Source of the DNA: Dysgonomonas sp. 25
GTDB lineage: Bacteria > Bacteroidota > Bacteroidia > Bacteroidales > Dysgonomonadaceae
NCBI RefSeq assembly: GCF_010501075.1
Contig: NZ_QVMN01000005.1
Span: 71,714 to 135,713, forward strand
DNA length: 64,000 bases
Direction of reading: 5' to 3'
The position numbers and the translations under genes are program-made. How positions within the stretch are numbered: position 1 is the first letter of the stretch; each line of letters opens with the position of its first letter. This document shows, piece by piece, positions 4,915 to 7,709 of this stretch. The notes under the pieces were generated by a model. The model was given only the letters and a program-made list of their open reading frames with translations. It made no database searches and was not told where the DNA came from.

Positions 4915-6609
4915 ATGAATAAAAGAATAACCGTAAGTATCTTAAAATACGGGCTGATACTTATCTGCCTTTTGCTGTTTGTGGCAATCGGCGGATTGCT
5001 GATTGTCGGCTATGATACATTCTTTGGCTCACTGATAAATAAGATAGCCCTCCCCGAAAGCAAACATGTCGATTTGAAGCTCTTATTATCTCCCGAACGG
5101 AAATTGGCTGTCTGGGGAATCCTCATTGCTTCATTTGCAGCTTCTGCTATTGCCTTGTATTTCAGGGATAAATTGAGTGACTTTTTAATTCGTTTCGGGC
5201 GTGATGTGAAGCAGGCATTCCGGCATATATTCTCCGACGTCTGCACCGCTAAGGGGTTGGCTATTATGCTGATATCGTTTTCCTTGTCGGTCTATCTCGG
5301 CTTGACGGTTCCCGTCTCGTACGACGAAGCGTATACCTATCTGACCTTTGTCAACAAGCCGTTTTATTACAGTGCTACGTTCTACCCGAGCCCGAATAAT
5401 CATGTCTTGTATTCCCTTCTCGCCAACGCAACAGAAATGCTTCCGTTCTTATCCGAACTGTTTTGTTTGCGTTTGCCTGCTATCCTGCTCTCTCTATTGA
5501 GTTGGATAGTTATCTATTCTTTTATAAAGCGAGATTTCGCCGAATCGTTGTCGGTGTTGGCGACTGGTATTGTTTCCGTCCTGTTCATGTCTGTTTATTA
5601 TAGCTTTATGGCGAGGGGCTACAGCTGCGTAGTCTTGCTATTCGTCGTGTGCTTCTGGGCATCGTATAATATTATAAACAAAGGCAGCCGGACGAAAGAC
5701 TGGATGTTTTTTATGATAAGCAGCATATTGGGCGTTTACACAGTACCCTCGTTCGTCTATCCGTTAATATCGCTCAATGCCCTGATTCTGATATGTAATT
5801 ATCGGAATATCAGGCAGCAAATAGCCTATAATCTGGTGGCAGTTGCGAGTGTAGGTATGCTCTATGCCCCTATAATCCTATTGCAGAAACAAGGATTGGC
5901 CGCCATTACGAATAATCGCTTTGTTGCGCCTATTGACAGGTTCGAGGTAATTGAGAGGCTTCCGTCTTTTATCGCTAATACCATTTTCGAGATATTCGGC
6001 ATACCGTCTCTCATCATTGGTGGAGTTGTTATCGTAGCTTTTGTGATGACATGCATACGGAAAAATAAGCAACTGATACTGACATGGATTGTATTCCTTG
6101 CCTCGCCCGTGTTATTGTTAATATTACATTCGGTAATACCTTTCCCTCGGACTTTTATTTACTACGGCTTTGTGTTGGTCTTTTTAATATGCCTATCGTT
6201 TCGCCCTTATATCGAGAAGCTGAAAACTACTTATCTACTTATTGCTGTCATTATTATACAGGTGGCTGCTGCGATAAATTTTACGAACAAAATAGATGCA
6301 TACGAGGGGTATAATACGGCAGCCAAGCAAGTGAATGAATATGTATTGAAAGGGGAAGGTAAAAAATATTATCTGGCAAATTCTTTGTGTAACATTCATT
6401 TCGAATACGAATACTCGATTCGAGGCTACGATTCTGCAAATGTTAAATATGACAGCTATACTGTTATCAATGCCGACACTATCTCGGGTTATGATTATGT
6501 TATCATTGACAAAGGCAACGATGCAACGATGCATAAAACCCCTCTATACGAGAATGCATATCAGGTTGTTTACTCCGGCGAGGTGGCAGTAACCGAGACC
6601 GTCCGTTAA
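4915..6609 (+). CDS. GT-C-type membrane glycosyltransferase (PMT/ArnT-like, GT39-related)
   Basis: 564-residue polytopic membrane protein with about a dozen hydrophobic segments starting at residue 10. The first large extracytoplasmic loop carries VPVSYDEAYTYLTF (Asp137-Glu138) followed by SPNNHVLYSLL. This is the acidic-pair arrangement of GT-C enzymes, which transfer sugars from polyprenyl-phosphate donors. A soluble C-terminal domain follows the last helix (from about residue 465, ANSLCNIHFEYEYSIRGYDS). The substrate cannot be told from the sequence. The gene appears monocistronic. The base immediately after its TAA stop begins the degenerate CRISPR-like sequence at 6612-6647. Confidence 0.75.
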   Translation: MNKRITVSILKYGLILICLLLFVAIGGLLIVGYDTFFGSLINKIALPESKHVDLKLLLSPERKLAVWGILIASFAASAIALYFRDKLSDFLIRFGRDVKQAFRHIFSDVCTAKGLAIMLISFSLSVYLGLTVPVSYDEAYTYLTFVNKPFYYSATFYPSPNNHVLYSLLANATEMLPFLSELFCLRLPAILLSLLSWIVIYSFIKRDFAESLSVLATGIVSVLFMSVYYSFMARGYSCVVLLFVVCFWASYNIINKGSRTKDWMFFMISSILGVYTVPSFVYPLISLNALILICNYRNIRQQIAYNLVAVASVGMLYAPIILLQKQGLAAITNNRFVAPIDRFEVIERLPSFIANTIFEIFGIPSLIIGGVVIVAFVMTCIRKNKQLILTWIVFLASPVLLLILHSVIPFPRTFIYYGFVLVFLICLSFRPYIEKLKTTYLLIAVIIIQVAAAINFTNKIDAYEGYNTAAKQVNEYVLKGEGKKYYLANSLCNIHFEYEYSIRGYDSANVKYDSYTVINADTISGYDYVIIDKGNDATMHKTPLYENAYQVVYSGEVAVTETVR

Positions 6610-6611
6610 CC

Positions 6612-6647
6612 AGTGTATCCCCTCCGCAAATGAAAGCTAATCACAAC
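6612..6647 (+). repeat. Isolated degenerate CRISPR repeat; candidate tracrRNA anti-repeat
   Basis: A 36-nt stretch 518 nt left of the array aligns without gaps to its repeats at 27 of 36 positions. All nine mismatches fall in the first 18 positions; the last 18 nt (ATGAAAGCTAATCACAAC) match the array, being a hybrid of its two repeat variants. If the array is read leftwards (repeat beginning GTTGTAATTAGC), this sequence, read rightwards, is complementary to the 5' half of the crRNA repeat. That is what a type II tracrRNA anti-repeat looks like. A plain decayed repeat left by deletion is the alternative. No -7 box is visible directly upstream. Confidence 0.65.
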
Positions 6648-6659
6648 TTAATTCTTCTC

Positions 6660-6688
6660 ATATCAATAATTTATTTTATTGATATTTT
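6660..6688 (+). terminator. Perfect AT-rich hairpin downstream of the degenerate repeat
   Basis: ATATCAATAA (6660-6669) pairs perfectly with TTATTGATAT (6676-6685) across a 6-nt loop and is followed by T residues. It could terminate the glycosyltransferase transcript or form the 3' hairpin of a tracrRNA-like transcript starting at the degenerate repeat. Confidence 0.55.
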
Positions 6689-6709
6689 CATTAACTTTAC
6701 AAAAAAAGC

Positions 6710-7045
6710 ATGAAGAAAAATATAATAATATATTTAGTGTTGGCTGTTGCTATTTTTAGTTTTCCATCGTGTGATGTTTGGTTGGGAGTACGGGGTACAG
6801 TTGTTGATTCTGAAACAAGCGAACCCCTAAAAGGTGTAAAAGTTTTTATAAATAATGAGAAAGGATTTACTACCACTGATTCAATTGGAAACTTTTATAT
6901 TTTAAGTGAAAAAAATTATGCTTTTAAAAAGGTAAAGAATGCTTCTTTAGAACTTAGATTTGAGTTAGATGATTATAAACTTTTAGATAGGAATATGTTT
7001 GTAAATAAAAAAGATAGTATTTTTTATCTCGAAAAAATAAAATAA
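6710..7045 (+). CDS. Small AT-rich lipoprotein with carboxypeptidase-regulatory-like fold
   Basis: 111-residue predicted lipoprotein: signal MKKNIIIYLVLAVAIFSFPS followed by Cys21. The body begins VRGTVVDSETSEPLKGVKVF and contains FTTTDSIGNFYI, the pattern of a carboxypeptidase-regulatory-like / CarboxypepD_reg beta-sandwich domain (G-x-V-x-D-x-x-T-x-x-P-L-x-G-x-x-V, then T-D-x-x-G-x-F). The function is unknown. The gene is much richer in A/T than its neighbours. It lies between the degenerate CRISPR repeat and the CRISPR array, which suggests that it arrived later or replaced something there. A possible -7 box (TAACTTTA) lies in the hairpin-to-gene gap. Confidence 0.7.
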   Translation: MKKNIIIYLVLAVAIFSFPSCDVWLGVRGTVVDSETSEPLKGVKVFINNEKGFTTTDSIGNFYILSEKNYAFKKVKNASLELRFELDDYKLLDRNMFVNKKDSIFYLEKIK

Positions 7046-7135
7046 AAGCAGGTAATGAATCTGCTTAACTTCTTCAATATTTATGTATGATATTCAATTA
7101 TAATCTATAATGGTTGTACCTCACACATAGTGTTC

Positions 7136-7151
7136 GGACATCTTGATGTCC
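7136..7151. repeat. Short palindrome 15 nt left of the CRISPR array
   Basis: GGACATC-TT-GATGTCC, a 7-bp inverted repeat with a 2-nt centre, lies just outside the first repeat at 7166. It could be a protein-binding palindrome or a small hairpin. No function can be assigned. Confidence 0.4.
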
Positions 7152-7165
7152 TTCCCATATCCGCT

Positions 7166-7529
7166 GTTGTATATCCTCACAGGATGAAAGCTAATTACAA
7201 CGTCTATTTGAAGTGAATCTATTTGATACGAGTTGTATATCCTCACAGGATGAAAGCTAATTACAACTCGAGCTGTGAGCCTTGTAGCCTGTTGTCGGTT
7301 GTATATCCTCACAGGATGAAAGCTAATTACAACGTCGTTGCGGAGAATGTTCGCGGACTTATTGTTGTATATCCTCACAGGATGCAAGCTAATCACAACG
7401 TCTATTTGAAGTGAATCTATTTGATACGGTTGTATATCCTCACAGGATGCAAGCTAATCACAACTCGCACGAGAATGACGCCGCAGAAGACTAGTTGTAT
7501 ATCCTCACAGAATGAAAGTTGCCCATAAC
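7166..7529 (-). CRISPR. CRISPR array: six 36-nt repeats, five spacers, no cas genes
   Basis: Repeats start at 7166, 7232, 7298, 7364, 7429 and 7494, each 36 nt; spacers are 30, 30, 30, 29 and 29 nt. On the plus strand the repeat begins GTTGTATATCC and ends AATTACAAC. It contains an internal hairpin (ATCCT-CAC-AGGAT), and its ends are complementary (GTTGT/ACAAC). Repeats 1-3 are identical; repeats 4-5 share two changes (positions 22 and 31); repeat 6 is degenerate. Spacers 1 and 4 are the same sequence apart from one terminal base. Minus-strand transcription is inferred from a TAAATTTG box at 7581-7588. A 36-nt repeat with 30-nt spacers suits type II-C or VI-B; with no cas gene in the window the type is open. 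Confidence 0.9.
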
Positions 7530-7580
7530 GGCTCGCTTGCCGTCCGATACGACAAATACCTGTCTCTCGCTGCTAATATA

Positions 7581-7588: not shown

Positions 7589-7709
7589 GAATGGAGAATT
7601 ATATAATCTTCCCGAAGGATTTTTATCTATAATCCTGCTTTATTCGGATATAAAGTTTAAATTTACAAGTAATAAAAGTAGTATACAAACACATTAAAAC
7701 ACACACAAA

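Follow-up and report, generated by a model that had tools for sequence, protein, structure and literature searches.

A solitary repeat-like sequence beside an orphan CRISPR array in Dysgonomonas sp. 25 raises the question of whether it encodes a tracrRNA, is a relic of a CRISPR repeat or serves some other function. Both lie in the window that we analysed, a stretch of 64,000 nt (G000:C54:71714-135713) from a 3.74-Mb assembly of 58 contigs that is 98.9% complete. The orphan array (7166..7529, plus strand) consists of six 36-nt repeats and five 29-30-nt spacers, four of which are distinct, and no match to Cas9 or Cas1 was found near it. The element (6612..6647, plus strand; AGTGTATCCCCTCCGCAAATGAAAGCTAATCACAAC) is 36 nt long, has the orientation of the array repeats and starts 2 bp beyond the stop codon that ends the gene at 4915-6609. 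An initial annotation read it as a tracrRNA; we consider it reasonably likely to be a degenerate II-C repeat in an ectopic position, next to an orphan array of II-C type.

Searches of the whole genome revealed one Cas9 (by a RuvC_III match) and one Cas1, both on contig C32, where NCBIfam assigns the proteins as Cas9 and type II Cas1. This agrees with the earlier suggestion of a II-C-like locus that lacks cas genes or uses a Cas9 encoded elsewhere, since there is no local cas9 or cas1 and C32 carries both Cas9 and a fitting tracrRNA. In the C32 locus (L002, C32:168000-187500), cas9 (L002 7959-12395) is accompanied by cas1 (L002 12734-13669), a reading frame in the usual place of cas2, and an array of 12 spacers whose repeat is 47 nt long (GTTGTATATCCTCTGCTAAGTTACAAATTTTGAAAGCTAATTACAAC) and is truncated in its last copy. 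On the minus strand upstream of cas9 sits a canonical tracrRNA, which reads CGAAAGCTAATCACAAT, then the nexus AAGGATTATTCCGTTGTGAAAAC, then a hairpin and a T run. In its best segment, the C32 Cas9 is 76% identical to the Cas9 of a Bacteroidales MAG. The C32 array repeats carry TAATTACAAC, which has one mismatch to their own tracrRNA, and TAATCACAAC, which pairs perfectly with that tracrRNA, is found in the element and in two repeats of the window array.

The repeat of the window array (GTTGTATATCCTCACAGGATGAAAGCTAATTACAAC) has the first 13 nt of the 47-nt C32 repeat and also its last 17; allowing one 11-nt gap, the two align at 32/36. This retention of both II-C repeat ends supports, at the level of sequence, the assignment of the array to type II-C. 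Its first 21 nt occur nowhere else in the genome with up to 3 mismatches, and a pattern search of genome_contigs, in which the own genome and very near ones may be absent, returned 0 stretches with 36-nt relatives. Like the II-C arrays of C32 and, in the accessible text of PMC8092290, of Flavobacterium columnare, it has both repeat ends, spacers of about 30 nt, a degenerate or truncated terminal repeat and a tag complementary to the tracrRNA; unlike a usual II-C array, it has no cas9 or cas1 nearby, and 36-nt and 47-nt repeats occur in one genome. The same text gives 36 bp for the II-C repeats of F. columnare and, on average, 11 bp more for the other species compared. Spacers 1 and 4 of the window array are identical, and its first three repeats are of one variant and the next two of the other; the repeated spacer and the blocks of variants suggest a duplication within the array.

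The initial annotation had assumed leftward transcription of the array. According to the parts of the literature available, transcription of II-C arrays runs toward the leader (PMC8092290), and the oldest, extra repeat is often mutated in the part that pairs with tracrRNA (PMC12080349). The terminal repeat of the window array (7494..7529, plus strand) is degenerate in this pairing half and the right-hand repeat of the C32 array is truncated, both of which fit the latter account, so leftward transcription of the window array, from the minus strand, is plausible. Use of an orphan array in trans requires a Cas9 and a compatible tracrRNA, both of which are present in the genome; the C32 Cas9 and tracrRNA probably serve the window array in this way, with crRNAs from a leftward transcript relying on the single tracrRNA and Cas9 of C32. 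A comparison of the array with phage records returned 11 records, the strongest with E = 2. Seed scans of IMG/VR with the four window spacers and three of the 12 C32 spacers gave one match, between spacer TCGCACGAGAATGACGCCGCAGAAGACTA and IMGVR_UViG_2834167860_000008 (22 contiguous nt, 24/29 overall), which we discounted: the neighbouring ORFs give the impression of a phage from another phylum, and by a rough estimate one such match in several scans is unsurprising.

The element aligns to the array repeats without gaps over all 36 nt, as first described. Each real repeat variant matches it at 26/36 positions, divided into 9/18 in the first half and 17/18 in the second; the figure of 27/36 given earlier, and the placing of all nine mismatches in the first 18 nt, apply solely to a hybrid of the two variants, which matches the second half at 18/18. 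A score of 26/36 is the highest outside the array on either strand of the 64-kb window, where no other place exceeds 22/36. Against the 47-nt C32 repeat, the element scores higher than against the local repeats (29/36 with one 11-nt gap). Repeat likeness is present in both of its parts, with the 17/18 match to local repeats in the second and a 13/19 match to the C32 repeat in the first 19 nt; in the window, 19 plus-strand positions (0.03%) score as high, 12 of them outside the element and the six array repeats, and 15 positions do so on the minus strand. The intact crRNA tag within it (GTTGTGATTAGCTTTCA; 6631..6647, minus strand) matches at 16/16 and is complementary to the anti-repeat of the C32 tracrRNA. 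No Rfam family reached its gathering score in the window.

The headline claim of the initial annotation, that the element is a tracrRNA, does not survive comparison with real II-C tracrRNAs. What the element shares with them is a plus strand complementary to the crRNA repeat tag and a hairpin on the 3' side. It would indeed pair with minus-strand repeats, and co-folding of the plus-strand element with the first 22 nt of the repeat (minus strand) predicted a duplex of -19.9 kcal/mol; however, this pairing is not specific, because every plus-strand copy of the repeat would form it. The nexus occurs once in the genome at up to 3 mismatches, on C32, and is absent at that threshold from the sequence after the element (TTAATTCTTCTCATATC). 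Across the genus, the same search gave 10 matches in 9 of 25 genomes, and an anti-repeat precedes the nexus in nine of the 10, three of them (G017, G015 and G009) shortened and fused to a repeat. Polarity had been said to fit, yet all eight loci examined that carry tracrRNA and array on a single contig (G000, G018, G024, G017, G015, Niastella, Phocaeicola and Prevotella) have an anti-repeat that runs opposite to the array repeats, and the window element does not. This count left out G021, where the two are on different contigs, and G022, G009 and G007, where an array on the tracrRNA contig was not established. Against a tracrRNA stand the missing nexus, the opposite polarity and the repeat-like 5' half of the element; the hairpin is AT-rich with a poor T run and makes no canonical terminator, and a canonical tracrRNA already exists on C32. 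We therefore hold it very improbable that the element is a tracrRNA, or a decayed one, read from the plus strand. A half-spared repeat with a hairpin is insufficient for a tracrRNA call, which nexus and polarity decide.

The initial annotation had also taken the identity of the spared half to fit an anti-repeat; a comparison is offered by the orphan array of G065, a genome from another family of the order. In this variable array of 18 repeats, the last 17 columns are conserved at 95% on average, and the two preceding 15-column blocks at 72% and 82% ungapped or at 84% and 77% after realignment. Repeats are spaced 74-79 nt apart, so the search pattern dropped none of them. The spared half of the element is thus, judged from the aligned repeats, the half that variable array repeats of the II-C family keep anyway. 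A 19th repeat stands alone in G065, its start 754 nt from that of the final repeat in the array, with its tag intact; it was found by this tag, so the intactness is selected. The locus (L079:3784-5843) has highly variable 47-nt repeats together with the isolated one, and no ORF of more than 600 aa was present in the 9 kb examined.

Other II-C tracrRNA loci of the genus take unusual forms. On the minus strand of L090 (~9080, G017), L091 (~8721, G015) and L092 (~6107, G009), a II-C tracrRNA is fused to a repeat end in the order spacer-repeat-hairpin-antirepeat-nexus-terminator, which makes one predicted RNA resembling a natural sgRNA. No Cas9 match was found in G017 and G015 (each 99% complete) or in G009 (55% complete), and the fused units are perhaps products of cas-operon deletions. 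Those of G017 and G015 are identical at 83/85 sites, with downstream blocks at 87/100, 89/100 and then 100/100. An overlapping repeat pair like these units was predicted in strain SLCC2428, as described in the available part of PMC6199352. At L066 (G024:C81), a tracrRNA-like nexus and hairpin stand without an anti-repeat.

The perfect 10-bp hairpin reported after the element is real (6660..6685; A/T-rich, 6-nt loop) and is the sole perfect stem of at least 10 bp with a loop of 3-8 nt in the 64-kb window. A perfect stem of this kind arose in 20 of 5000 mononucleotide shuffles of 6648-6709, and the region 6625-6700 folds with z = -3.62 (1 of 200 shuffles folds equally well). T residues do follow the stem, as had been noted, but the run is short and poor, the stem has one G-C pair, and it is absent from the results of a terminator scan that demands 3 or more such pairs; the hairpin may be a weak terminator or a structure near the start of the next gene. 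That gene (6710..7045, plus strand; 26% GC) lies between the element and the array just downstream of the hairpin, and is small, with a CarboxypepD_reg-like domain and, by eye, a lipoprotein-like start. This arrangement allows the spared half to be explained as DNA kept for its neighbours, as the 3' end of one gene or the promoter of the next, with any repeat origin incidental. The element does start 2 bp after the upstream stop and the hairpin does sit immediately before the 6710 gene, but such a role leaves an exact 17-nt repeat half unexplained, and a scan limited to sigma-70-type promoter sites listed no plus-strand promoter or terminator here. We regard this explanation as improbable.

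An origin in a type VI-B (Cas13b) system is suggested by the 36-nt repeats, the 30-nt spacers and the GTTG...CAAC ends, all of which fit VI-B arrays. However, there were 0 Cas13b matches in the own genome, which removes this alternative for practical purposes and makes it the least probable that we weighed; 14 of 198 genomes of the order were positive, one of them in the same genus, and the repeat on that Cas13b contig (GTTGTAGAAGCTCTCACTTTGGAGGGTATGACAAC) differs. One Cas9, one Cas1 and one nexus, all on C32, together with a tag that pairs with the C32 tracrRNA, support a repeat origin within type II-C. The element would then be a solitary relic of the II-C repeat family that lies next to an orphan array with 36-nt repeats of II-C type: one half would have decayed, and the crRNA-tag half would be kept because it is the part that this family conserves in its repeats. 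The initial annotation had named a decayed repeat as the rival explanation, and it is the better fit, with the caveat that the element lies 518 bp from the array on the side of its intact repeats, not past the degenerate terminal repeat. It is also out of register: the start-to-start distance of 554 nt is no whole number of 65-66-nt periods, so a longer array that ended in register with the element does not by itself account for it. Further points count against a relic. In the flanks tested, no further decayed repeat is prominent on the plus strand (shuffle fractions 0.20-0.71), and the adjoining perfect hairpin is unusual and unexplained. A second decayed repeat proposed at 7113 (GTTGTA---CCTCACA) was rejected, as 44% of shuffles of the 6655-7160 flank reach its score. 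Reverse-strand repeat-like alignments at 6746-6774 and 7623-7652 are weak and gapped (shuffle fractions 0.056 and 0.034).

Related genomes offer homologues of the upstream gene but no syntenic locus among them, which also weighs against a relic. The homologues occur in 12 of 61 genomes, the own genome included, and the four loci that we fetched have none of 10 other neighbour genes tested in common. The downstream lipoprotein was found in one of 25 genomes, its own. A Blast search of 6600-7560 within the order gave matches in 29 of 198 genomes; to judge from their place in the query, these were mostly short and AT-rich, and they led to the G065 array. In one of 26 stretches, from Phocaeicola, oadA adjoins a II-C array; several of the stretches come from the same locus, and a shared site is thus only a suggestion.

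Read from the minus strand, the element presents a spacer-like sequence followed by GTTGTGATTAGCTTTCA, and an RNA from it would end in GUUGUGAUUAGCUUUC. We considered that it might encode a crRNA-like RNA of the scaRNA or CreR type, which would use its tag and the C32 tracrRNA to guide Cas9 to a partly matching promoter and repress it. The geometry is that of scaRNA and CreA/CreR ectopic repeats as the accessible portions of PMC6199352, PMC9458426 and PMC12737573 describe them; CreA of CreTA (PMC9458426) and scaRNA (PMC6199352) are likewise single degenerate repeats outside an array that keep the part interacting with the effector. A 16/16 tag outside the array is itself in favour, and a 20-nt tag is predicted to form a duplex of -23.8 kcal/mol with the C32 tracrRNA, with 16 bp free of mismatches. 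For the commoner array variant, folding of its first 22 nt gave -17.4 kcal/mol, with stretch lengths that differ slightly from those of the 20-nt tag; a T in TAATTACAAC of this variant creates a mismatch to the tracrRNA. Targets are where this reading falters. The longest seeds for the element's guide in six nearby or cas regions are 5-6 nt, which shuffles equal. Genome-wide, its first 17 nt recur at three other places with up to 2 mismatches, the best of them a 13-nt seed inside an ORF (by a rough estimate, 0.1-0.2 such matches are expected by chance), so that neither these regions nor this match place a seed near a promoter. Seed complementarity in Francisella scaRNA spans 9-15 bp, according to the available part of PMC13431127. 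Unlike CreA and scaRNA as those sources present them, the element is only a candidate and has no target complementarity in the regions scanned. On balance, a minus-strand crRNA-like RNA seems to us unlikely, though it draws some support from other ectopic tags.

We tested four ectopic tags, namely the window element, two on C32 and one in Niastella soli, and two of the four have strong adjacent target matches. The first is an ectopic half-repeat at L002:12403, within the interval between cas9 and cas1 (L002:12396-12733, G000:C32) and just past the cas9 stop. From the exact tag junction, 13 nt of its guide-like neighbour match L002:12613-12625, which lies upstream of cas1 by about 109 nt. A match of 13 nt arose in one of 2000 Markov shuffles, and the 61 guides taken from arrays (12 C32 spacers, 4 window spacers and 45 sequences after Niastella repeats) all stay at 7 or below. 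Part of the putative target recurs at the start of cas1 (ATATGAAGTTATGATC), and a functionless inverted duplication is an alternative explanation of the C32 repeat and its match. The second is at L067:2779 (region 2768-2953) in Niastella soli, between tracrRNA and cas9 and beside a strong predicted hairpin. It has an 11-nt match that ends at 2953, 58 nt upstream of cas9, which 0 of 2000 shuffles and 0 of 512 other local 30-mers equal; the 57 guides taken from arrays all stay at 8 or below. On their 3' sides, the C32 and Niastella putative targets are flanked by TAAAAGATT and TGAAGCACA. On these matches, the C32 half-repeat is a candidate II-C crRNA-like autoregulator, and the Niastella soli case is a candidate independent parallel to it. 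The fourth tag, at C32:213201, matches no more than 10 nt in the stretches scanned, which counts against a crRNA-like role. It belongs to an ectopic mini-array (L010:996-1070) of 47-nt-type repeats about 30 kb from the main C32 array, composed of a 3' half repeat, a 29-nt spacer and a 5' half repeat.

To see how widespread such tags are, we scanned chosen non-coding stretches round the cas genes of nine II-C loci (the own locus, G018, G024, G021, G022, Niastella, a Bacteroidales MAG, Phocaeicola and Prevotella). Tags of at least 14/16 with no tracrRNA nexus after them were present in three (C32, Niastella and the MAG). The MAG tag (L068:35, in L068:1-60 upstream of cas9) matches at 14/16, has no nexus beside it and lies at a cut contig end; its seed in the scanned stretches is only 5 nt, which counts against a general rule of cas-gene targets. 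G018, G024, G022, Niastella and Prevotella also have weaker tags (11-12/16), some of which consist of tracrRNA nexus sequence. One of those in G018 has an 18-nt "seed" that comes from a local tandem repeat and was discounted.

SpyCas9, for which autorepression has been described, is a type II-A enzyme. The accessible text of PMC13131331 reports CreR for types I-B, I-E and V-A and autorepression for SpyCas9. The C32 and Niastella repeats are like CreR in being partly complementary to sequence upstream of cas genes; they differ in belonging to type II-C where CreR belongs to types I or V, and the window element has no such complementarity in the regions scanned. For type II, the consulted part of PMC6199352 mentions predicted scaRNA:tracrRNA pairs in IIA/IIC systems, and that of PMC13431127 a Neisseria II-C scaRNA that acts posttranscriptionally on efeUOB and for which a computational search gave no Cas9-type guided target. 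Among titles and the openings of abstracts, a set with few subscription papers, we found no report of CreR-like autorepression in type II-C. The wider proposal that the window element is one of several ectopic II-C half-repeats encoding minus-strand crRNA-like repressors, with the C32 and Niastella copies as II-C counterparts of CreR and tracr-L, is in our estimate less likely still than a crRNA-like role for the window element by itself; under it, the window copy would act on a target outside those found so far.

For the window element itself, a solitary relic of a II-C repeat remains the account that we prefer. The stray repeats within II-C cas loci, with a guide-like match just upstream of cas1 or cas9, may matter more than the element that led to them. 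The ectopic repeats of C32 and Niastella make RNA-guided self-regulation of II-C systems directly testable.
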